Shown here piece by piece: positions 6,357 through 46,673 of a DNA stretch of 64,000 nucleotides. Source of the stretch: Rhodobacterales bacterium LSUCC0031. GTDB lineage: Bacteria > Pseudomonadota > Alphaproteobacteria > Rhodobacterales > Rhodobacteraceae. Numbering within the stretch: the first letter of the stretch is position 1; every line of letters starts with the position of its first letter. Where the stretch lies: assembly GCA_015689735.1 (NCBI GenBank), contig WVSP01000001.1, positions 546,001 to 610,000 of the forward strand, read 5' to 3'. The position numbers were made by a program, and so were the translations under genes. The notes below the pieces were generated by a model. That model made no database searches. It had not been told where the DNA came from and saw nothing but the letters and a program-made list of their open reading frames with translations.

Positions 6357-7511
6357 ATGGGAAGCTACATCCTCAGACGCGTGCTGTTGATGATCCCGAC
6401 ACTGCTCGGGATCATGGTGATCAATTTTGGGCTCACGCAATTCGTACCGGGCGGTCCGATCGAACAGGTCATCGCCCAGCTCGAAGGCGAGGGGGATGTA
6501 TTCGCCGGCATCTCGGGCAGCGGGTCCGAGGCGGGGGGCGCAAGCGAGATTGAGGGCATCGGCTACGAGGGCGCGCGGGGCTTGCCACCGCAGTTCCTTG
6601 ATGAGTTGCGTGTGCAGTTCAAATTCGCCCGCATTGTTTGTGAGGCGGGCTTCTCCGGCACGCCGAACCTACGCGATCCGGCCTGCATGGCCGAGGATAT
6701 TCCGGGGCTGGAACGCTTTGGCCTCATGATGTGGGATTATGTCCGCTTCGATTTCGGCGAGAGCTATTTCCGCTCGATCTCGGTCATTGATCTGGTGCTC
6801 GAAAAGATGCCTGTTTCGATCACCTTGGGTCTGTGGTCCACACTCATCGCTTATCTCGTGTCGATCCCCTTGGGCATCGCCAAGGCCACGCGCGATGGCA
6901 CACGGTTCGACACCTGGACGAGCGGTGTGATCATCGTGGCCTATGCAATCCCCGGTTTCTTGTTCGCGATCATGCTGTTGGTGCTGTTCGCTGGGGGGCG
7001 GTATTACCAGATCTTCCCGCTGCGTGGCCTGACCTCGGACGGGTGGGAGGACATGACGCTTATCCAGCAGATCGGCGATTATTTCTGGCATATCACCTTG
7101 CCGGTTTTGGCCTCGACCATCTCGGCATTTGCCACGCTGACGCTCTTGACCAAGAACAGCTTCCTCGACGAGATCCGCAAGCAATACGTCATGACCGCGC
7201 GCGCCAAGGGTCTGGCAGAGGCGCGCGTACTTTACGGCCATGTCTTTCGCAACGCGATGCTGATCGTGATCGCGGGCTTTCCCGCCGTTTTCGTCGGCGT
7301 CTTCTTCGGCGGCAGCCTGATCATCGAGACGATCTTTTCGCTCGATGGGCTGGGGCGGCTGGCCTTCGAGGCCGCGGTCAGCCGCGATTACCCGGTGATT
7401 TTCGGCACGCTCTTCGTGTTCGGGCTGATCGGGCTGGTGGTCAATATCCTGTCCGATCTGATGTATGTCTGGATCGACCCCCGCATCGACTTCGATACGC
7501 GCGAGGGGTGA
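6357..7511 (+). CDS. yejB: Peptide ABC transporter permease YejB
   Basis: The 384-residue inner-membrane permease begins with the DppB/YejB-type N-terminus (YILRRVLLMIPTLLGIMVINF). A long periplasmic loop (about residues 45-135) follows the first helix, as is usual for YejB. The cytoplasmic EAA-loop, which contacts the ATPase, is seen at about residues 278-300 (MTARAKGLAEARVLYGHVFR). It starts 6 bp after the binding-protein gene and is followed 3 bp later by the second permease. Confidence 0.93.
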   Translation: MGSYILRRVLLMIPTLLGIMVINFGLTQFVPGGPIEQVIAQLEGEGDVFAGISGSGSEAGGASEIEGIGYEGARGLPPQFLDELRVQFKFARIVCEAGFSGTPNLRDPACMAEDIPGLERFGLMMWDYVRFDFGESYFRSISVIDLVLEKMPVSITLGLWSTLIAYLVSIPLGIAKATRDGTRFDTWTSGVIIVAYAIPGFLFAIMLLVLFAGGRYYQIFPLRGLTSDGWEDMTLIQQIGDYFWHITLPVLASTISAFATLTLLTKNSFLDEIRKQYVMTARAKGLAEARVLYGHVFRNAMLIVIAGFPAVFVGVFFGGSLIIETIFSLDGLGRLAFEAAVSRDYPVIFGTLFVFGLIGLVVNILSDLMYVWIDPRIDFDTREG

Positions 7512-8687: not shown

Positions 8688-10264
<1,577 letters not shown>

Positions 10265-38089: not shown

Positions 38090-38166
38090 CGGAGTGTAGC
38101 TCAGCCTGGTAGAGCACTGTCTTCGGGAGGCAGGGGCCGGAGGTTCGAATCCTCTCACTCCGACCA
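38090..38166 (+). tRNA. tRNA-Pro (anticodon CGG)
   Basis: A 77-nt cloverleaf: acceptor CGGAGTG/CACTCCG, D arm AGCTCAGCCTGGTAGAGC, anticodon stem CTGTC/GGCAG with loop TTCGGGA (anticodon CGG, codon CCG), T arm GGAGG-TTCGAAT-CCTCT and encoded CCA. Its 3' half is part of a 60-bp direct repeat that marks the left end of an integrated island. Confidence 0.95.
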
Positions 38167-38176
38167 GATTTTCCAA
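38117..38176. repeat. attL: 60-bp direct repeat in the 3' half of tRNA-Pro
   Basis: The segment from the anticodon stem through ten bases past CCA is repeated at 46614-46673 with one mismatch (C at 38137, T at 46634). A tyrosine integrase gene starts 72 bp downstream. This is the classic pattern of integration into a tRNA gene, where the element restores the 3' end. Confidence 0.9.
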
Positions 38177-38220
38177 GCACTTAGCGGCTTTTCTCACGGA
38201 GAAGTGCGTTCGGTTGGTCA

Positions 38221-38236
38221 CACTGTTGTCACAGTG
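38221..38236. promoter_or_regulatory. Hairpin/operator-like dyad just before the integrase gene
   Basis: CACTGT-TGTC-ACAGTG forms a perfect 6-bp inverted repeat ending 11 bp before the integrase ATG. The position overlaps the expected ribosome binding site region, so it could be a repressor or excisionase site or a translational hairpin. Role inferred. Confidence 0.35.
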
Positions 38237-38247
38237 GAGATCATTCG

Positions 38248-39243
38248 ATGCCGACGATCAGAAAGCGCAACGGAAAATTTCAGGTTCAAGTGCGGATTGC
38301 CGGGCAGTTTATGTCACGGACTTTCGACACTCGGACCCAAGCTTTCGCATGGGGGCAGGAAACCGAGAAGGACATTCTGAGTGGTGGGTATGGAGCGCAA
38401 AGCTATACACCGGCCAACCTCGCGGAAGTGCTTCGCCGATACATCCGTGACTGCACTCCGAGAAAGGCTGATCCTAAGGCTGAGCGATATGTTCTTGAGG
38501 CAATGCTCAAGGAGCCGTGGTCGCAAATGCCACTATGCAAAGTTCGCACTGCGCATATAGCACATTACCGCGACGAACGCCTCAAGACGGTTAAGCCCAG
38601 CACCCTTAAGCGGCAGATCGGTATACTGCGGACGGCCTGCCTGACCGCCCAGCGCGAATGGGCGTGGCAAGTGCCGACAAAATTTGTGACCAGTGTTAAG
38701 CTCCCAGCCGTGCAGGAGACCGTAATAAGGCGTATCACCGCGCAGGATGAACACGATTTGCTCAGTGCCGCCAGCGTTACTGGGCATCACTACATTGCTG
38801 AAGTGATAACCTTGGCTATTGAGACGGGAATGAGGCGTTCGGAGATCGCGCGGATGTCGGTAGAAGACGTCGATCTTGAGCGGAAAATCATCGTCTTGCC
38901 AAGTACCAAGAATGGCCGCTGGCGCAAAGTGCCGATCTCACGGAGGCTTGAGGCCAAGTGCTTCTCTGGGCAAGACATTAACCAAGCCAGCGTCTTTGAG
39001 GCAAGTATTGACGGTATCAAATCCGCATTCCGGAAAGTCTTGGAAGTCAAGGCTGGCCGGCGAATACGGTTTCATGACCTCAGGCACGAGGCCATCAGCC
39101 GATTCTTCGAGCGAGGTCTTTCTGTTCCTGAAGTCGCTGCAATAAGCGGGCATCGTGATCTTGCTGTACTAGCACGCTACTCGCATGCGGATATTGATAG
39201 AATTATTTCTATTATTCATGACCATGAAAGTGATAAATTATAA
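38248..39243 (+). CDS. Tyrosine recombinase/integrase of the genomic island
   Basis: A 331-residue phage-type integrase. An N-terminal arm-binding segment (about 1-55) and a SAM-like core-binding domain (about 56-150) precede the catalytic domain. Catalytic residues are all visible: Arg196 in TGMRRSEIARM, Lys221 in STKNGRW, His276 and Arg279 in FHDLRHEA, His302 in SGHRD and Tyr311 in ARYSHAD. The gene lies directly downstream of tRNA-Pro and reads away from it; integration into tRNA-Pro with a 60-bp core is supported by the repeats. It looks intact. Confidence 0.95.
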   Translation: MPTIRKRNGKFQVQVRIAGQFMSRTFDTRTQAFAWGQETEKDILSGGYGAQSYTPANLAEVLRRYIRDCTPRKADPKAERYVLEAMLKEPWSQMPLCKVRTAHIAHYRDERLKTVKPSTLKRQIGILRTACLTAQREWAWQVPTKFVTSVKLPAVQETVIRRITAQDEHDLLSAASVTGHHYIAEVITLAIETGMRRSEIARMSVEDVDLERKIIVLPSTKNGRWRKVPISRRLEAKCFSGQDINQASVFEASIDGIKSAFRKVLEVKAGRRIRFHDLRHEAISRFFERGLSVPEVAAISGHRDLAVLARYSHADIDRIISIIHDHESDKL

Positions 39244-39693
39244 TATAAATATTCAAGTTGAATCTAAGGTTTTCTGTTGCCACCTGACTGAACTCATGAA
39301 TAATAAGCGCAATTGTGTGTGGAGTTTTGTGTTCGACATAAATGGCCGTAAAGGTAGTCAAGATTTCGCAATCGCGAATGGAGTGGCATAGACCCCGGCT
39401 GGGGGAAGCAGTAGCCCCGGTGCTGACACACACCACCAGCTGCACGAGCAGGGGAAGAACCTGCGGATAGCCATGGGGTCGCTCGGTTGGCCTTCTGGTG
39501 TTTCTGCGTTGTTAAGCAGCGCATAAAGGGGAGACAGCGCAACCGCCCCCTACCTCACGTGAGGTGACGCTAACCGAGCCGAGTGACCGAGGACATGGCT
39601 CCGGGGATCACACGTCGTTAGCCCTTCGCGGGCTAACTGTGTCTTTAGTTTGGCGAAGCCAAGTTCCCTCAAACAATCACCAAGGATCAGCAG
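39244..39693 (+). other. 450-bp non-coding stretch with structured leader before a small gene
   Basis: No convincing gene. After an AT-rich start (39244-39320) the DNA becomes GC-rich and dense in inverted repeats: the 14-bp palindrome ACCTCACGTGAGGT at 39552-39565, GTTAGCCC-TTCGC-GGGCTAAC at 39617-39637, and TTGGC-GAA-GCCAA at 39650-39662, ending 18 bp before the AAGGA ribosome binding site of the 68-residue gene. It could be a long structured 5' leader or an RNA gene; no known RNA family was recognised. Confidence 0.4.
39617..39637 (+). repeat. 8-bp hairpin in the small-gene leader
   Basis: GTTAGCCC and GGGCTAAC pair around a TTCGC loop, extended by CAC/GTG further out. TGTGTCTTTAGTTT follows, so it may act as an attenuator-like or weak terminator 57 bp ahead of the small gene at 39694. 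Confidence 0.5.
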
Positions 39694-39900
39694 ATGTTCT
39701 ATGAAGTAACCGAAAATCAAAAAGAACAGTTGCTTAACCGTATACTTGATGCCAACTGCGCAGCGCAAAAAAAGCGCTGCGTGGAAGATGCTTCAAACTT
39801 GAGGTTGCTCTATAAAAAAGTGCAGAATCTCCCTGTTGGTGGAAGTATGAAACCTGAAATTGTAGTTACTCTAAAAGCGCTTCTGAAGAAGTACAGGTAA
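39694..39900 (+). CDS. Small hypothetical protein of the island (68 aa)
   Basis: A 68-residue basic, mostly helical protein starting MFYEVTENQKEQLLNRILD and ending LKALLKKYR, with two cysteines in the middle. A good ribosome binding site (AAGGA, seven bases before ATG) supports expression. No family was recognised; there is no signal peptide or membrane segment. Its AT-richer codon use matches other island small genes, and it lies behind a structured leader. Confidence 0.6.
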   Translation: MFYEVTENQKEQLLNRILDANCAAQKKRCVEDASNLRLLYKKVQNLPVGGSMKPEIVVTLKALLKKYR

Positions 39901-40217
39901 TATTCGATGTCGCATTTTTTTATCGTTAAATTACGATGTATGCGCGAAGTCCAATAGGGTGGTCCAGCGCGCTGTGGGCGCGCAAATGTATTGAGAGAAA
40001 GTCAGTACAGATAGGCCAAATTAGAGCCTGACCTGACAATCCCCGCAGGTATGCTTAATGCTCTTGTGCCACCCGCAGTGGCACCTTTGCCGCTTGAAAT
40101 GATCAACAATGCCGGCGACAACCCGTCACGAGATTTTTCAAGGCGCAGCAGGCGCCAAATTGGACGAACAGCTGGCTGAACCCATCGCACAGAGGAAGGA
40201 CCAGTAGGCCGTTAGGG
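39901..40217. other. 317-bp gap without a convincing gene
   Basis: An AT-rich start (39901-39945) and a short dyad around CCAGCGCGCTGTGGGCGCGC (39964-39983) are the only visible structures. The frame ending at 40206 reads FQGAAGAKLDEQLAEPIAQRKDQ without a start or ribosome binding site and may be a decayed gene end, possibly phage-derived; this is a guess. Confidence 0.3.
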
Positions 40218-40640
40218 TTATGCGCACCCCTTGCTATGCTGCGCCAGCCGGGCACGAATAGCTGCCTCAATTTCATCCACGCTGCGGTCGGTCAAATTCT
40301 TGGTCTCGACCCGGTCGGTAAACAGCCCGAGATGCTTACCCAAAAGTTCAATTGCACGAATTCTCGCGCTGTCAGTTCTGGCACTGAGAGCTTCCTTCTC
40401 CAGCTGGGCAAGAATGGCCTCCTCACGCCCCACTAACATGGTCTGCCGCACCTGCTCAGCCTCGGCCCTCAACTCGCCAATCCTTTGGGCCACCATAGGG
40501 TGCTTAGCCAGCTGACTGGCCTCCGTCCAGATGGCAGGCGGCGACATGCGATCAGCATTATAAGCAGTGCGATAAGCGGCCGCTTGATCAGCTCCATCCG
40601 CGATAGCACATGCGAAGATTTCCTGTTTCCGGGTCAGCAT
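40218..40640 (-). CDS. Phage terminase small subunit-like protein (orphan)
   Basis: A 140-residue protein whose N-terminal ~65 residues (LTRKQEIFACAIADGADQ, then AYRTAYNADRMSPPAIW) match the DNA-binding helix-turn-helix of phage terminase small subunits, which select the packaging site. The C-terminal half is a charged helical region with ARTDSARIRAIELLGKHLGLF. No large terminase, portal or capsid gene follows, so it is an orphan, possibly used by a phage-satellite-like element. Start chosen at MLTRKQ, preceded by GAGG; a form five residues longer is possible. Confidence 0.65.
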   Translation of the reverse strand: MLTRKQEIFACAIADGADQAAAYRTAYNADRMSPPAIWTEASQLAKHPMVAQRIGELRAEAEQVRQTMLVGREEAILAQLEKEALSARTDSARIRAIELLGKHLGLFTDRVETKNLTDRSVDEIEAAIRARLAQHSKGCA

Positions 40641-40740
40641 ATCAACCTCATGCACATTTATATTCGAAATATGCCACTTTTGTGCATTTTTGTTAACATG
40701 CTTTCATGGCGAAGGCACCCTCCAACCTCTGGCTGGATAG

Positions 40741-40758
40741 GTGCATTTGCACTTTTCT
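40741..40758. promoter_or_regulatory. Copy A of an 18-nt repeat with GTGCA/TGCAC dyad
   Basis: Reading on the minus strand, AGAAAAGTGCAAATGCAC is identical to the sequence at 42495-42512 on the plus strand. The 12-bp core is a dyad (GTGCA-N2-TGCAC). This copy lies 101 bp upstream of the terminase-like gene start. A shared operator for island genes is the simplest reading. Confidence 0.4.
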
Positions 40759-40872
40759 TGAGCCTTGTACCTGTGGTGCGGAACCTGAGCCGCGCTCGTT
40801 GTTCGCATACGTTCTATGGATGCTCGACGCAATTGCACAGGATCGGCACTTCGATTCTGCCGTTTCAGCCGC

Positions 40873-41640
40873 TTACCGCGGCGCCATCCTGATCGCTCCA
40901 TCAAGCCTGATCACTTCACCGTTCAACATCGGGTTGCGGGTGATGTGTCCAACCATTTCTGCATACTCGGCAGGGTCACCTAGGCGCGCTGGGAACGGCA
41001 CCTGCGCACCAAGTGAGGCCTGCACCTCCTCAGGTAGCCCAGCCATCAGGGGTGTTCTGAACAGCCCCGGCGCGATTGCGCAGACGCGGACGCCCTTATC
41101 AGCCAGATCACGCGCCATCGGAAGTGTCATCGCAGCGATTGCGCCCTTAGAGGCAGCATAGGCAAGTTGGCCCACCTGTCCGTCGAAGGCCGCGACCGAA
41201 GCTGTTGATATGATCACACCTCTCGCACCGTCCGAGCCGACAGGGTCGCAACCCACCATGAGTGCCGCCGCTTGGCTCGCACAGTTGAAGCTACCGATCA
41301 AGTTGACGCGAATGACGCGCTCGAACAATGCCGGATCATGTGCCGTCCCACGTGAGACTGTCTTTGCGCCTGCCGCGATACCGGCACAATTAACCAAGAC
41401 CCTCGGAGCGCCGTGAGCCGTACATGCAATCGCGAACCCTTCGGCAACCTCAGCGACATCGCTGACATCAACCTTCGCGAACCTCCCACCGATACTGGCT
41501 GCATGTGCCTGTCCTTGTTCGACACTCAGGTCGAAGATCGTCACCTTCATGCCTGCCCGCGCCAGCAAAGCTGCCGTTGCAGCCCCAAGTCCAGAGGCAC
41601 CGCCCGTCACTACAGCACCATAACCTGCCCAATCTTGCAT
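40873..41640 (-). CDS. SDR family dehydrogenase, 3-hydroxyacyl-CoA dehydrogenase type II-like
   Basis: A 255-residue short-chain dehydrogenase: TGGASGLGAATA cofactor motif (about 12-23), Asp in TIFDLS favouring NAD, NCAGIA near 87, catalytic Ser and Tyr-x3-Lys in YAASKGA. The sequence PMARDLADKGVRVCAIAPGLFRTPL and RLGDPAEYAEMVGHI are typical of HSD17B10-like 3-hydroxyacyl-CoA dehydrogenases. With the thioesterase on the same strand upstream it suggests acyl-CoA metabolism as island cargo. A small unknown frame lies between them. Confidence 0.82.
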   Translation of the reverse strand: MQDWAGYGAVVTGGASGLGAATAALLARAGMKVTIFDLSVEQGQAHAASIGGRFAKVDVSDVAEVAEGFAIACTAHGAPRVLVNCAGIAAGAKTVSRGTAHDPALFERVIRVNLIGSFNCASQAAALMVGCDPVGSDGARGVIISTASVAAFDGQVGQLAYAASKGAIAAMTLPMARDLADKGVRVCAIAPGLFRTPLMAGLPEEVQASLGAQVPFPARLGDPAEYAEMVGHITRNPMLNGEVIRLDGAIRMAPR

Positions 41641-41726
41641 GAAGTCTCTCCCGCTGGCTTGATCCGTCTGATCACGTTCGGAGTATTGCACAGTCAGTTC
41701 CAACAAGACCCACAAAAAAGCCCCTG

Positions 41727-41912
41727 TTAGAAGACTGGCAATTCTCCTGTATCAGCACCAACGTCTGACAGTAGAAGGTCGTTCAGGTCGTCATTGACCT
41801 GCAACGATCTGAGTTCATCTGACGTCAAACCATAGGGACTATCCTCAAGCTTTACGCGCAAGTGCGTATCGCCCCAGACCGCTGTGATGATGTGGCGCTC
41901 TTCATTTGTCAT
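41727..41912 (-). CDS. Small hypothetical acidic protein (61 aa)
   Basis: A 61-residue frame starting MTNEERHIITAVWGD and ending in an acidic tail rich in Asp and Leu. A GAGAAGGG tract lies just before the ATG but the spacing is only one or two bases, and a GTG 63 bp further upstream is also possible. It fits between thioesterase and dehydrogenase genes on the same strand, which is the main support. No family recognised. Confidence 0.4.
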   Translation of the reverse strand: MTNEERHIITAVWGDTHLRVKLEDSPYGLTSDELRSLQVNDDLNDLLLSDVGADTGELPVF

Positions 41913-42016
41913 ACCCTTCTCAACGACACAAAACCCGACTGTGTTAGGCGAAGCATGGTCAAGAGTTGGGTACACCGACTGCTGATGCGCCCAAGACAGC
42001 CCGAGTATCTGAGGCC

Positions 42017-42436
42017 TTACACAGGTACTGGCACCATTGTACCGATAAGGGTGGCGATCAGGGTTTCTTCACCTTTGTGCCTGACGAAGACATCAGCTCC
42101 CGCGACCACCAAACGGCGCCCCGCACGGATCACACGACCACGCGCGATCAATTCGTCACCCGCCCCCGGAGCAAGAAGGTGTATCGACATCTCCGAGGTC
42201 AGAACCTCTGTTTCCGCCGACATCACGCTCAGTGCGGAATATCCGGCCGCGCTGTCACCAATTGCGAATGTTAGCCCGGCATGTGCGAAGCCCTGCTGTT
42301 GCTGCGTCGCAGGCGTCAGAGGTGCGGTGATCTCAACACATCCCGGCTCAATCCGCGTGATGCGCGCGCCAAGAGTGTCCATTAGCCCCTGCTTGCGAAA
42401 GCTTGCCTCGATCCGCGATGCAATTGATGATGCCAT
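42017..42436 (-). CDS. PaaI-type acyl-CoA thioesterase (hotdog fold)
   Basis: A 139-residue hotdog thioesterase. The PaaI-type active-site segment is QQQGFAHAGLTFAIGDSAAG (about residues 48-67), with the usual HGG loop appearing as HAG and the catalytic Asp in GDSAAG. Start chosen at the ATG giving MASSIASRIE, preceded by GAGAGGGTGTC. One copy of the GTGCA/TGCAC repeat lies 58 bp upstream of the start, on the divergent promoter region shared with the methyltransferase gene. Confidence 0.82.
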   Translation of the reverse strand: MASSIASRIEASFRKQGLMDTLGARITRIEPGCVEITAPLTPATQQQQGFAHAGLTFAIGDSAAGYSALSVMSAETEVLTSEMSIHLLAPGAGDELIARGRVIRAGRRLVVAGADVFVRHKGEETLIATLIGTMVPVPV

Positions 42437-42494
42437 GACACCCTCTCTGACTTGAACGACACATACCATGATCTGTGTTGGGCAGGAGACAATC

Positions 42495-42512
42495 AGAAAA
42501 GTGCAAATGCAC
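42495..42512. promoter_or_regulatory. Copy B of the 18-nt repeat with GTGCA/TGCAC dyad
   Basis: AGAAAAGTGCAAATGCAC, identical to the reverse complement of 40741-40758. It lies between the divergent thioesterase (58 bp away) and methyltransferase genes, a natural operator position. The rest of this 279-bp gap shows nothing else convincing. Confidence 0.45.
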
Positions 42513-42715
42513 TTCTGGCAAACGCAGCATTCAACTCCGCGGCACAAGTCCTCCAGCGCACCCAGATGGCCGAGCCATTGGCCACACATACTTCCGGCAG
42601 ACACAGTGCCGACCGTGCTGACCAAGGCCGTGACTAGTGCTTTCCTTTGGCGACAAACTTGCTTGCTGCCATAACGCAGCTTTAACATGCGGCGACAGAA
42701 ACAAAGGCTCGACCA

Positions 42716-43339
42716 ATGGCTGATCTTGAGGGTGCCTACTCCATCGCCTCGACCGCTGAGGCACAGCGCGTGTATGCCGGGTGGGCAACCACATACGATG
42801 CCAGCTTTGCCGGTAGGTTGGGGTATGTTGCACCACAGCGGATCGCAGCGCTGTTTCTTGCGGAAGGCGGTCAGGCGGCACAGGCGGTTCTTGATATCGG
42901 CGCAGGCACTGGATTGGTCGCAGAGGCGCTGCCGGGAATTGAGATCGATGGCATTGACCTCTCACCTGAGATGCTGGCGCAGGCGGAAGCAAAAGGGCTG
43001 TATCGAAACCGGATTGTAGCAGACCTGACAGGCCCCTTGCCTGTCGCGGATGGTACCTACCATGGGTTCGTCTCTGCTGGCACCTTCACTCACGGACATG
43101 TGGGGGCCGAGTGTCTGCCGGAACTTCTGCGGATAGCAGCGCCGGGAGCGCTGTTCTGCTGTGGCACGAGACCAGCGGTATATGACGGTATGGGTTTCGG
43201 CTCAGCGCTTGCGCTTGCGGCCGCTCGCGGACAGATCACGCCACCGCATTTCCATGAGATCGGTATCTATAATGGCGATCATGATCACGCGAGCGATGTG
43301 GCTTTGGTGATGGTTTTTGCACGCTTGTTGGAGACTTGA
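42716..43339 (+). CDS. Class I SAM-dependent methyltransferase
   Basis: A 207-residue cytoplasmic methyltransferase with motif I VLDIGAGTGLVAEAL (about 58-72), an acidic residue after the second strand (IDGIDLSPEMLAQA) and motif post-I/II region GTYHGFVSAGTFTHGHVG. The N-terminal VYAGWATTYDASFAGRLGYVAP resembles small-molecule methyltransferases of the UbiE/Williams-Beuren type. The GC-rich codon use is closer to the chromosome than to the neighbouring beta-barrel gene. Substrate unknown. Confidence 0.82.
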   Translation: MADLEGAYSIASTAEAQRVYAGWATTYDASFAGRLGYVAPQRIAALFLAEGGQAAQAVLDIGAGTGLVAEALPGIEIDGIDLSPEMLAQAEAKGLYRNRIVADLTGPLPVADGTYHGFVSAGTFTHGHVGAECLPELLRIAAPGALFCCGTRPAVYDGMGFGSALALAAARGQITPPHFHEIGIYNGDHDHASDVALVMVFARLLET

Positions 43340-43388
43340 CGGCTCGCGGCAGACCGCTACACCTCACTCCAAAGGCTGAGGTCTCACA

Positions 43389-44330
43389 ATGATACGCAAT
43401 ATCACTATTTTCACGCTATGCGTTTGCCCGCTCACTGTCGCAGCGGAAGGCACCGGAACGTCCTCCCAGCTGCTTTCGACCTTTGTGACGGCTACGAACT
43501 CGAGCAACCCGGTGGGTGTGACCCAGCAGGCAGTAGAGGGTTTCGCCCTCTCAACACTTAACAATGAATTGAACAATCAATCTTCTAACCTACTGGGTGA
43601 TAAGCTGAAATACCTCAGCCTGTCCGTTGGCCGTGATCGGGACGAGCTTTTTTTGGAGGGCATGTCGGTTTATGGGCTTTATGAAAACCAGAACTGGTTT
43701 TTGTTCAACCAAACATCGTTGATCAACTATGATGGCAGAAACACCCTAAACTTCGGCCTCGGTGCGCGACACATCAACGATCCTGAGACAGTCATTGTGG
43801 GGGTGAACGCCTTCTATGATTTTGAGTTTGGATCAGAGCATCGCCGCAGTGGCATTGGCGCTGAACTACTCACATCACTGCTACAGATGCGGGCCAACTA
43901 CTATGTCTCAGCGACAGGTGAGCGGCTCGTCGATGGTATTTTCGAGGAGGCGCTGAGCGGAAATGATCTGCGACTGACATACGAACTGCCGTATTTCTAT
44001 CAGTCAGATGTCTATCTCCTTGCATCGAACTGGTATGATGGTCGCGGTTACAGCACGTTCAGCCGTGAGTACGGATTTACTGCTGAAATTGCTCCCAACC
44101 TGATGCTCGAACTAGCGTCAACAAGTGACCGAGGGCGCGCTGATCGTTTCTCTGGATCGCTTACATATCGCTTCACACTTGGATCAGAACCAGATCGACG
44201 TGTGCCTCGTGATGGCGTTTTCCGTTTCGCTCTAGAACCGGTTCGAGAGATGCTTTACGAGCCGGTTCAGCGCGAAAATCGAATAATGAAAAAATCTGTA
44301 ACGCTTGGGATAACTGCAAGTGGCTTCTAA
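43389..44330 (+). CDS. Inverse autotransporter beta-domain protein without passenger
   Basis: A 313-residue protein with a signal peptide (cleavage near VAA/EG, residue 19). The middle shows the inverse-autotransporter beta-barrel hallmark GVNAFYDFEFG (about 138-148) with RRSGIGAEL, and repeated amphipathic strands such as LTYELPYFYQSDVYLLASNWYD. In intimin and invasin the barrel is followed by a passenger of Ig-like repeats; here the protein ends about 35 residues after the last strand, so no passenger is fused. GAGG lies seven bases before the ATG. The next secreted-protein gene starts one base after its stop. Confidence 0.78.
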   Translation: MIRNITIFTLCVCPLTVAAEGTGTSSQLLSTFVTATNSSNPVGVTQQAVEGFALSTLNNELNNQSSNLLGDKLKYLSLSVGRDRDELFLEGMSVYGLYENQNWFLFNQTSLINYDGRNTLNFGLGARHINDPETVIVGVNAFYDFEFGSEHRRSGIGAELLTSLLQMRANYYVSATGERLVDGIFEEALSGNDLRLTYELPYFYQSDVYLLASNWYDGRGYSTFSREYGFTAEIAPNLMLELASTSDRGRADRFSGSLTYRFTLGSEPDRRVPRDGVFRFALEPVREMLYEPVQRENRIMKKSVTLGITASGF

Positions 44331-44331
44331 T

Positions 44332-45222
44332 ATGTTGAAGAACGATCAAGCGAAAATCACCGATCAGATCGCACTGATAGCAACCTTTAGTGCTTTACTC
44401 ACATTGACCACAGCTAGTGTAGCCGTTGCCGACACATCTTGCTCATCAAACTCTTGGTTCAATACACACACGGCTGGAAATGCAGCCAACGGGAACGCAG
44501 GGTACTGCTTTTTTACGCCACAAGCCATGAACATAAGGCTGTATGAGTTCGGCTTGTGTACTTCTGCGGCAAGCCCAAGTACTCGCGCGCAATGTACAAC
44601 TCTCTTTTCCAACCCATCGGGTACAGCGTTGGAACTAAGCGCAGGGATTAGCCTTCCACTTGCGGCGGGCGTTTCGATTTCTGAAGGCACTTACACGCAT
44701 GCGTTCGTGGTTCTCAGCAATGTGACCTCGCTGGAGACGGTCATTGAGTTTTCCAATGCCCGCACCGATGATCGTGGTTCAACCGGGAACTATTGCTATA
44801 CAGATGGGCGCAGTATTAACACTTCAGACTCAATTATCTCATGCGGAAACGATCCTGCAGCAGTGACCGCTTCAACGGAAGTAATTGGATTGGGTGGGGG
44901 GGGCTATTCAAATACCTTGCTTAATTACACAGTGAATATGCGGGGCGAGTCTGTTGTCACTGATCTCTATGCCATTACGAGCGCTGGAACATTGTCTTCG
45001 AACGCAGGCGATGATTTTGCTCTGTTTGGAAGTCAAATTCTTAACTCACCAATTTCAATCACACCAAACACCTCAAATATTGATATAGGTTTTTCAATAA
45101 CTGATGGCGTGACACTTGGATTTGTGAATGGTGGTCCTCCGTTCAATGCGCCAGCTCAAAGTACAGATGCACCAGTCGATGCAGTATTCGAGGGCCTTAA
45201 GTTTTTAATTTCTGCACAGTGA
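44332..45222 (+). CDS. Secreted protein of unknown function, partner of the beta-barrel gene
   Basis: A 296-residue exported protein: N-terminal signal segment (DQIALIATFSALLTLTTASVAVA, cleavage near residue 33), then a Ser/Thr/Asn/Gly-rich, mostly beta-type sequence with three or four pairs of cysteines in the first 150 residues (SCSSNSW, GYCFF, GLCTS, AQCTTLF, NYCYTD, IISCG). No family recognised. It starts one base after the inverse-autotransporter barrel stop, so it may be the passenger or cargo of that barrel. A GTG 12 bp upstream would overlap the previous gene. Low GC indicates foreign origin. Confidence 0.65.
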   Translation: MLKNDQAKITDQIALIATFSALLTLTTASVAVADTSCSSNSWFNTHTAGNAANGNAGYCFFTPQAMNIRLYEFGLCTSAASPSTRAQCTTLFSNPSGTALELSAGISLPLAAGVSISEGTYTHAFVVLSNVTSLETVIEFSNARTDDRGSTGNYCYTDGRSINTSDSIISCGNDPAAVTASTEVIGLGGGGYSNTLLNYTVNMRGESVVTDLYAITSAGTLSSNAGDDFALFGSQILNSPISITPNTSNIDIGFSITDGVTLGFVNGGPPFNAPAQSTDAPVDAVFEGLKFLISAQ

Positions 45223-45341
45223 TTTTTGACAGCTCAAAAAATTTAGCACCTCCACAAAAATTAATTTATTTCTTGACTATTCGAAAGACCGTATACAACA
45301 TTGCGGTACGGGCCTCCGGTTGTAGAGTCGGGGGTTAATCA

Positions 45342-45359
45342 ACCAGCGCTAGCGCTGGT
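45342..45359. repeat. 18-bp perfect palindrome ahead of a small gene
   Basis: ACCAGCGCTAGCGCTGGT is its own reverse complement. It lies 117 bp upstream of the 67-residue gene at 45476, inside a 253-bp gap that also has a TTGACT -35-like hexamer at 45273-45278. It could be an operator or a hairpin in the leader. Nothing else recognisable is present in the gap. Confidence 0.55.
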
Positions 45360-45475
45360 CCTTAGGGCGGACTTAGCCACCCGCCTGCTGGTCGCGGTAA
45401 GGCTCGGCATGGCACTCTGATAGAAATCAATTGGCTTCGCTCTGCGTTCCCATTGGTCAATAGAGGAGATGCTCA

Positions 45476-45679
45476 ATGACCACTTCTACAAGCAGCCTTC
45501 GTAAAAAGGCACGCAATTTGGAACTGAAGCTTTCTGTACGGAACGGTATGTTCCAAGTGTTCGAATACTGGCCAGAGCATAATTTCTGGCAGCCAGTTGA
45601 AGAATGCTGGGGGCAAATGCCGTACAGTCTGTTCCCTGAGGATGTTGAAGACATCTTGAGGGACAGGCTTCAGGCCTAA
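45476..45679 (+). CDS. Small hypothetical protein of the island (67 aa)
   Basis: A 67-residue soluble protein with a basic N-terminal third (SLRKKARNLELKLSVRNGMF) and an aromatic, acidic C-terminal part (EYWPEHNFWQPVEECWG, LFPEDVEDILRDRLQA). The ribosome binding site GAGGAG is seven bases before the ATG and a strong terminator follows directly, so it is a self-contained transcription unit. No family was recognised. Confidence 0.65.
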   Translation: MTTSTSSLRKKARNLELKLSVRNGMFQVFEYWPEHNFWQPVEECWGQMPYSLFPEDVEDILRDRLQA

Positions 45680-45687
45680 CAGCAAGG

Positions 45688-45723
45688 CCCTCTCAGCTGA
45701 AAAGCTGGGAGGGTTTATTTTTT
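45688..45723 (+). terminator. Rho-independent terminator after the 67-aa gene
   Basis: An 11-bp stem (CCCTCTCAGCT / AGCTGGGAGGG, one G-T pair) with a GAAA tetraloop is followed by TTTATTTTTT, nine bases after the stop codon. Confidence 0.92.
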
Positions 45724-45914
45724 CCAGTGCAGAAATATGGGTGCGATCTCCTCTTGACCACACCCGCGGCTGCCGCCATCCATGGATCATCATCAAGAGT
45801 TGAGCAGCTGCTCACGCCAACCTGCCCGACCGGCGAGGTGGTCTCCCGCGAGGGGATGGGGCCAAAAGGCAAACAAAGGTCGCATGTGACGTCAGCTCTT
45901 CAAAGGAGAGCGTC

Positions 45915-46388
45915 ATGGAACATCTTCACCCATCCATCGAGAAACTCATCGCCACAGCCCCTACAAGTGCCGTTGCAGCCGCTATCGGGCGCGATGCGTC
46001 CCTAACCTCACAACTCGATCCCTTCGCGGGCGTCCGGCTGTCTGTGAGCGTGCAAGGCCAGCCTCGGAGCCTGATCATCGGTCGATGGGATACCTGCGCA
46101 GAAGCTGTTCTGGACTTGCTGCATGCCAATCAGGCCAGCGCGTTTCTGCTCTTCAAGGGCGGCTCTCAGGGACGCGAGTACGCCTTCTTGGACCTGTGCC
46201 GCGAGAAGAGGTGGCATTTCGAGCGCGCGATGATCCTGCGCAGCGACAGCATGTTCCAACATGGGCAGGCCTTCATCATCCCATGGATCAGCCTGACAGA
46301 GGCCGACAGCATCGCATACCAGTTCAATATGGCAGCGTTCATTTACATGGAGCGAGGGCTGCCGGTGCGGCTGGCGGTCACCGGATGA
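45915..46388 (+). CDS. Hypothetical protein of the island (157 aa)
   Basis: A 157-residue soluble protein starting MEHLHPSIEKLIATAPTSA with central WDTCAEAVLDLLHANQASAFLLF and C-terminal ISLTEADSIAYQFNMAAFIY. An excellent ribosome binding site (AAAGGAG) precedes the ATG. GC content and codon use look chromosomal rather than island-like. No family recognised; there is no signal peptide or membrane segment. It is the last gene before attR. Confidence 0.6.
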   Translation: MEHLHPSIEKLIATAPTSAVAAAIGRDASLTSQLDPFAGVRLSVSVQGQPRSLIIGRWDTCAEAVLDLLHANQASAFLLFKGGSQGREYAFLDLCREKRWHFERAMILRSDSMFQHGQAFIIPWISLTEADSIAYQFNMAAFIYMERGLPVRLAVTG

Positions 46389-46613
46389 GCGAAATGCCAT
46401 GTAAGGTGAACCTGTGGAGGTTACGCCATTTCGCCCCTTCCCCCCCGGGTGGGGTCTGGAGGGGTGCCGTCAGAAAGAAAGAGAGGGGGTATCAGCTTGT
46501 CACACCGCTGGCACACACCGCTTGATTTTTGATAGAATGCAATCTAACTCCGACAGTGTGATCAACGTCGTGCTTTGAAATTGTTGAGTTTTTCTTGGAG
46601 TATGCTGATAAGG

Positions 46614-46673
46614 CTGTCTTCGGGAGGCAGGGGTCGGAGGTTCGAATCCTCTCACTCCGACCAGATTTTCCAA
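46614..46673. repeat. attR: right-end direct repeat of tRNA-Pro 3' half
   Basis: Sixty bases identical to 38117-38176 except T instead of C at 46634. It contains the anticodon stem, T arm, acceptor 3' strand and CCA of tRNA-Pro but not the 5' half, so it cannot make a tRNA. It marks the right end of the ~8.5-kb island; host sequence resumes at 46674. Confidence 0.9.

Follow-up and report, generated by a model that had tools for sequence, protein, structure and literature searches.

A small integrative island in a tRNA-Pro gene of Rhodobacterales bacterium LSUCC0031, with a terminase small subunit and a SAM riboswitch module at its end

The window analysed here is the whole 64-kb stretch (64,000 nt, positions 546,001 to 610,000 of contig WVSP01000001.1) of Rhodobacterales bacterium LSUCC0031. 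It carries, in the 3' end of a tRNA-Pro(CGG) gene, a small island that is bounded by direct repeats and contains a tyrosine integrase, a terminase small subunit (TerS) encoded on the opposite strand and, near its far end, a SAM-I/IV riboswitch (SAM, S-adenosylmethionine) in front of a gene for a 157-aa protein. The combination of riboswitch and 157-aa gene recurs in a second island of the same genome (on contig C4, hereafter the C4 island) and in a viral contig from IMG/VR (L076). The insertion site, the two phage-type genes and the end module, the latter including a 67-aa open reading frame (ORF), are arranged as follows.

38090..38166, + strand: tRNA-Pro(CGG), the integration target (ARAGORN); its 3' part is attL
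38117-38176: attL repeat copy, 60 nt, overlapping the 3' part of tRNA-Pro(CGG)
38248..39243, + strand: tyrosine integrase, 331 aa (Pfam Phage_integrase, PF00589, 1.8e-21; PHROG 1, 7.2e-48)
40218..40655, - strand: TerS, 145 aa (PHROG 51, 5.9e-15)
45476..45679, + strand: 67-aa ORF of the end module (83% identity over 65 aa in the C4 island; dN/dS 0.36)
45785..45886, + strand: SAM-I/IV riboswitch aptamer, RF01725 (Rfam, 62.4 bits versus a gathering score of 41.1)
45915..46388, + strand: 157-aa protein under the riboswitch (85% identical copy in the C4 island; no family over the cut-off)
46389..46491, + strand: conserved 3' flank of the end module, with a CCCCCGGGTGGGGTCTGG block (kept in the C4 island and in genome G007)
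46614..46673, + strand: attR, a partial tRNA-Pro repeat (direct-repeat match to 38117-38176)

A preliminary description of this DNA had reported a complete tRNA-Pro, an intact integrase behind it, a 60-bp repeat of the tRNA 3' half and AT-richer contents than in the flanks, and each of these was borne out, the repeat at the same coordinates. The two repeat copies, 38117-38176 and 46614-46673, agree in 59 of 60 nt, and the runner-up ungapped match to the att 60-mer in the window reaches only 32/60 on the + strand (30/60 on the - strand), which argues against a chance match. The insert between tRNA-Pro(CGG) and attR measures 8.5 kb, with the whole tRNA-Pro left at one side and the partial copy at the other; the integrase is a full open frame that starts 81 bp after the tRNA, and the G+C content of the island is 53.5%, compared with 62.3% in the remaining window. 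The att repeat was matched in all 13 genomes of the genus, the own genome included. The search for an empty site that the preliminary description had proposed was run in the relatives, and in the congener G008 the site is unoccupied, with EamA, tRNA-Pro and the host-attachment gene contiguous and uninterrupted; in the stretches fetched from the other congeners the host-attachment gene was not found behind tRNA-Pro, and G008 alone represents the empty site. A bounded, integrase-bearing island in the 3' end of tRNA-Pro(CGG) is confirmed by these data: the tRNA target, the adjacent integrase, the direct repeats and an unoccupied site in a relative are all present.

The single mismatch between the att copies is a C in the whole tRNA and a T in attR. 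The empty site of G008 also has T, as would be expected if the attP copy had replaced the 3' end of the tRNA. Some of the other congeners have T and some have C, hence the base is no general marker (the mismatch pattern was matched in 8 of the 18 loci L003-L020 and in both window copies), and as a mark of occupied sites it was rejected, because G006 has T in both copies yet is probably occupied. The tRNA-Pro site is reused by other elements: in G010 the same tRNA-Pro is followed by an integrase of 51% identity (L022 3126-4094, G010:C269), and G006 has an integrase-like fragment behind it (by eye; L026 918-1139) as well as a second, 55-nt copy of the repeat, without tRNA gene, on another contig (L033 9338-9392). 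The integrase of the window element had no relative in IMG/VR in a pattern-based scan.

The segment 45481-46481 (67-aa ORF, riboswitch, 157-aa ORF) is 86% identical over 1 kb to part of the C4 island (G000:C4, L061), which lies at tRNA-Ser, a 14-nt repeat being found at 6653 and at the 3' end of tRNA-Ser, 17246. Its gene order is Int, HTH_17 protein (HTH, helix-turn-helix), Prim-Pol, TerS on the opposite strand, an IS3-like pair (by eye), a remnant of the 67-aa ORF, the riboswitch and the 157-aa gene. A riboswitch pattern scan of IMG/VR yielded four contigs, one of which is L076 (9643 bp); it begins with a tRNA-Lys piece (30.5 bits in Rfam; Lys anticodon read by eye), followed by Int, AlpA, Prim-Pol/VapE, TerS on the opposite strand and, further on, the riboswitch and a 157-aa gene that is cut by the contig end. 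The opposite-strand TerS and the terminal riboswitch/157-aa module thus occur in the same order in the window element, the C4 island and L076; the latter two, about 10 kb each, both have an AlpA/HTH protein and a Prim-Pol primase. Pieces of the module were found in two other genomes: the riboswitch and the start of the 157-aa gene at a contig end in G010, and a broken 3' part adjoining tRNA-Arg in G007. The proposal of a small satellite-like or cargo element gains support from the two sisters, in which integrase, AlpA/HTH, Prim-Pol and TerS share their order and the end module is the same; the riboswitch, the second island and the shared end module had been overlooked in the preliminary description.

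The TerS of the island is 49% identical to that of L076 and 46% to that of the phage contig L117. TerS relatives were found at 33 loci of IMG/VR including L076, with up to 48% identity apart from L076. Three of the viral loci were examined (L117, L125 and L120, the last of which ends before the large-terminase region): a Terminase_6C protein lies some way downstream of TerS in L117 and L125, followed in L117 by an SU10-type portal, which places the island gene in a family of genuine packaging genes. The absence of structural phage genes around an orphan small terminase, claimed before, holds for the ORFs scanned: structural, lysis, capsid, portal and large-terminase families were not found among them, and in the PHROGs scan of 10 island ORFs (the thioesterase ORF described below excluded) only TerS matched a head/packaging family.

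In the end module, the 67-aa ORF is followed by a terminator-like hairpin (by eye), and 28 nt lie between the riboswitch match and the ATG of the 157-aa protein's gene. The dN/dS of this gene is 0.22 between window and C4 island, 0.33 between window and L076 and 0.50 between C4 island and L076 (the last two over 81 codons), values of purifying selection that make the ORF look like a selected protein. The gene is rare, being present in 3 of the 147 genomes of relatives (two of these as fragments) and in one viral contig in IMG/VR; the pattern-based scan found none in genome_contigs, from which the own genome may be left out. The protein had no Pfam match up to E 1, none in PADLOC, none in plasmids or phages and no solved relative (best E 0.18), and its weak matches are to an NCBIfam model (E 0.078, far below the cut-off) and to a PHROG of unknown function (E 0.0057). 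A likeness to phage SAM-degrading enzymes or to DUF3293 was considered and rejected, as it found no support. From the gene end to the att/tRNA end there are 225 nt in the window, 310 nt in the C4 island and 265 nt in G007; possible roles of the conserved stretch 46389-46491, near this end in three elements, are those of a terminator, a packaging site or an arm region for the integrase.

To place the riboswitch, RF01725 was scanned in the relatives and in the bacterial family, and it exceeded the cut-off in 11 of 147 and 12 of 394 genomes, respectively (the two sets overlap). The family contains 18 such places (two below-cut-off places, in G342 and G198, stand outside this number): nine lie before a protein with a twin-arginine translocation (Tat) signal, three before the 157-aa gene, one before metK (TIGR01034 over the cut-off, with a small ORF between riboswitch and metK) and five before genes without assignment. 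The Tat-type protein has about 200 aa and the motif QPDHWRMIDEGWF (TAT_signal E 6.5e-4, below the cut-off); its model reached a predicted local distance difference test score (pLDDT) of 79.6, with no PDB fold match better than E 0.42, and neither a solved sequence relative nor a relative in IMG/VR was found. In genome_contigs this family was detected at 15 loci, the titles of which name Rhodobacterales, Rhodobacteraceae, Paracoccaceae or genera that belong to these groups. The riboswitch core lies upstream of the gene in 14 of them (L108 lacked the core by regular expression). An integrase was found at five of the 15 loci (six queries), and three others have a tRNA gene no more than about 0.4 kb past the match; the remaining seven showed no such sign of a mobile element.

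An alignment of 19 aptamer copies (A8: 15 of the 18 family places, without G050, G238 and G413, plus L076, L105, L109 and L110) revealed an invariant core and changes on both sides of P2 with pairing kept; two-sided changes occur in 6 of 26 pairs. A further alignment (A6) covered 12 of the 15 Tat-protein loci, with L108, L109 and L113 left out. The distance from aptamer to start codon is 50-74 nt, in two gene families that are unrelated to each other. Covariation and locus contexts together show a selected RNA that recurs in integrative elements, and in this bacterial family the riboswitch mostly stands before genes of unknown function, several of them in such elements. Folding was run on 22 loci, among which L105, L110 and L090 did not show the pattern and the leaders of L113 and L109 had no recognised ribosome-binding site (RBS). 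In all 18 leaders left (no control leaders were folded), half or more of the RBS is paired, with a mean unpaired probability of at most 0.50, and in most of them it lies in a hairpin directly upstream of the start codon, which points to translation control.

Two loci showed other arrangements of SAM riboswitches. In L062 (G005:C3), two SAM-I/IV riboswitches (7302-7405 and 8714-8817) flank an integrase gene within 1.5 kb, the first preceding an ORF without assignment and the second a Tat-signal protein. In L074 (IMGVR_UViG_3300043434_001186), a contig classed as viral, a SAM-I/IV (541-642) and a SAM-V riboswitch (725-793) stand in tandem upstream of metK (798-2072).

The remaining features of the island lie between the integrase and the end module.

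39694..39900, + strand: 68-aa ORF, no family over the cut-off, preceded by a G+C-rich stretch (39340-39695)
40741..40758, no strand: 18-nt inverted repeat, copy 1, palindromic core GTGCATTTGCAC, 85 nt upstream of the TerS ORF start
40873..41640, - strand: short-chain dehydrogenase (SDR), cargo (Pfam adh_short, 4.5e-39)
41727..41975, - strand: 82-aa ORF, no family matched
42017..42436, - strand: PaaI-type hotdog thioesterase, cargo (family match; 96% identical copy in G010)
42495..42512, no strand: 18-nt inverted repeat, copy 2, core GTGCATTTGCAC, 58 nt upstream of the thioesterase start
42716..43339, + strand: methyltransferase-domain protein, cargo (Pfam Methyltransf_11, 3.2e-11)
43389..44330, + strand: inverse-autotransporter beta-domain protein, 313 aa, without passenger (Pfam IAT_beta, 8.7e-32)
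44320..45222, + strand: 300-aa protein with a signal-peptide-like start (by eye), no Pfam match better than E 0.28

The segment 41961-43273 shares 88% identity with a stretch of G010 in which the thioesterase adjoins the same methyltransferase among other genes. With the pair shared among different neighbours, the middle part of the island has the look of acquired cargo. The methyltransferase gave a single weak match to PADLOC mad2 (E 7.8e-10), which was attributed to the common methyltransferase domain. Part of the accessory genes, which the preliminary description called mostly undescribed, are ordinary: the SDR, the PaaI-type thioesterase, the methyltransferase and the inverse-autotransporter beta domain. 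In the 43389-45222 region, the beta domain without passenger and the 300-aa protein behind it possibly form a split surface system; the latter was found in the own genome alone among the 147 genomes and had no plasmid match.

The core of the 18-nt inverted repeat (GTGCAWWTGCAC) occurs only at these two places in the 2.98-Mb genome. Transposon ends were rejected, as no target duplication was seen by eye, and a shared operator before TerS and the thioesterase operon would fit the two copies better; if so, TerS would be tied to the cargo operon. No regulator for the repeat was found. The stretch 39340-39695 is G+C-rich in AT-rich surroundings and possibly structured, and had no Rfam family over the threshold; for 39250-40060 there was no relative in the plasmids, phages or comparison loci fetched. 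The palindromic leaders of the preliminary description proved weak, because 39340-39695 and 45280-45475 fold only slightly better than their shuffles (z = -2.05 and -1.45).

We interpret the island as a reduced, cargo-loaded satellite-like element, a relative of the phage-inducible chromosomal islands (PICIs) and the phage-inducible chromosomal minimalist islands (PICMIs), and give this reading a probability of roughly 55%. The integrase and the att sites would move the element in and out of the chromosome, and TerS, by analogy with PICIs, would deliver island DNA to the large terminase encoded by a phage in the same cell, as no capsid, portal or large terminase was found in the island itself. 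The cargo would comprise the genes for the SDR, the thioesterase, the methyltransferase and the surface protein. The riboswitch is predicted most likely to control translation of the 157-aa protein via the hairpin over the RBS. The usual sense of SAM riboswitches is on at low and off at high SAM, and if this sense is carried over from the class, the 157-aa gene would follow the SAM level of the host.

Several observations weigh against this interpretation. The TerS match to Pfam Terminase_2 (E 1.1e-4, 23.3 bits) stays below the cut-off of 26.1. Of the 33 viral TerS loci, L076 itself (numbered L116 in that set) was the only one in which the queries used detected an integrase, AlpA, primase or riboswitch, so that most TerS kin reside in phages and not in satellites. 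A helper phage was not identified, the sole Terminase_6N protein of the genome lying in a cluster that resembles a gene transfer agent (other large-terminase families were not searched). No AlpA/HTH family was found in the 20 scanned ORFs of the window element (tblastn with four AlpA-type queries gave at best E 0.043 over 10 aa), nor a primase or replication gene by family scan and tblastn, and the element may therefore be unable to replicate or excise alone. For the end module, the AlphaFold model of the 157-aa protein is poor (pLDDT 44, from 2 sequences), and in the folding test the RBS hairpin appears whether or not P1 is formed, which leaves the on/off sense without support from folding.

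The only Terminase_6N locus (L150, G000:C5:46000-65900) is a cluster of capsid, portal and terminase genes next to acpP- and fabF-like genes (by eye) and is probably a gene transfer agent. As a helper it was considered only as a possibility: the island has 8.5 kb, whereas RcGTA heads hold about 4 kb.

The satellite-like reading has to be weighed against a plain cargo island, in which the integrase moves genes useful to the host (acyl-CoA-type enzymes, a surface protein) without exploitation of a helper phage, TerS being a bystander or having another role. This is possible, though somewhat unlikely: metabolic cargo makes up most of the island middle, the thioesterase/methyltransferase pair has other neighbours in its 88% identical G010 segment, and AlpA and primase were not found, but three elements that agree in end module and order have all retained TerS, and the sisters carry the satellite gene set. 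With regard to the riboswitch, it might be a hitch-hiker, i.e., a methionine-gene leader that was carried along and is idle for the element. RF01725 does precede metA in two genomes of other families (metA just under the cut-off of the closest model), and in the folding test the hairpin is present in both states of P1; however, the invariant core and covarying P2 in 19 copies, the position 50-74 nt before the start codons of two unrelated gene families and the presence of metK at only one of the 18 family places make this improbable. That the island is a decayed prophage which kept integrase and TerS is likewise improbable. Its TerS is related to TerS on viral contigs (with L076 set aside, at up to 48% identity), and most of those loci show no satellite genes, but no structural, lysis or large-terminase family was found among the scanned ORFs, the two sisters, each about 10 kb long, have the same order with satellite genes in addition, and the 59/60 att repeat is precise.

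A reduced, cargo-loaded satellite relative, if this is what the element is, belongs to a group of which the SAM riboswitch end module is the most unusual part. Satellites are best known from enterobacteria, vibrios and Gram-positive cocci, and a TerS-bearing satellite family in Rhodobacterales would extend this range to a major marine group. A SAM riboswitch that repeatedly accompanies integrative elements, before two unrelated protein families of unknown function, is more unusual: riboswitches are mostly taken as housekeeping controls, and here one may give mobile DNA a read-out of host metabolism. Speculatively, and we consider it unlikely as a whole, integrative elements of Rhodobacterales, phage satellites among them, may repeatedly have captured the SAM-I/IV riboswitch to read host SAM and to express an effector at the att end when SAM falls, e.g., upon destruction of SAM by an invading phage or during methionine starvation of the host. 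If true, a metabolite riboswitch would serve as the sensor of an accessory or defence gene of a mobile element. In the open-access papers searched, none describing SAM riboswitches in satellites or integrative islands was found, as judged by titles and the starts of abstracts, and a search for phage satellites with terminase matched nothing.

The beta-domain protein of the island resembles the inverse autotransporters (intimin/invasin-type, PF11924) in its beta domain, which is over the cut-off, and differs from them in its 313 aa without passenger, a separate 300-aa protein with a signal-peptide-like start following it. SAM-I/IV RNAs were described from several phyla, typically from metagenomes (PMC2864571). 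The RNA of the island shares with them the aptamer fold and the conserved core and exceeds the gathering score; the difference is that here it precedes genes of unknown function in integrative elements, copies before metA and metK existing elsewhere. The window element resembles the Gram-negative PICIs (PMC6092414) in its integrase at one end, its specific att site, its TerS (terS is present in part of the PICIs, a cos or pac site in others) and, among the scanned ORFs, its lack of structural and lysis genes. The AlpA/MerR-type regulator and the primase of PICIs are found in both sisters and not in the window element, which carries a SAM riboswitch and measures 8.5 kb, compared with about 15 kb for Gram-positive PICIs (PMC6092414). 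PICMIs, the minimalist satellites of Vibrionaceae, are modelled as int, alpA, prim and fis (PMC10803314). The likeness to them lies in the very small size, the absence of capsid genes and the int-alpA-prim core of the sisters. PICMIs adjoin fis, whereas the elements here lie at tRNA genes (tRNA-Pro in the window) in Rhodobacterales and contain TerS, and the window copy lacks alpA and prim; in the main text on PICMIs, the word "terminase" is absent and "terS" occurs once. Without AlpA and primase, the window element is filed under neither PICI nor PICMI. The architecture of the family as a whole is nevertheless closest to PICIs and PICMIs, and it apparently represents an undescribed group of satellite-like elements.

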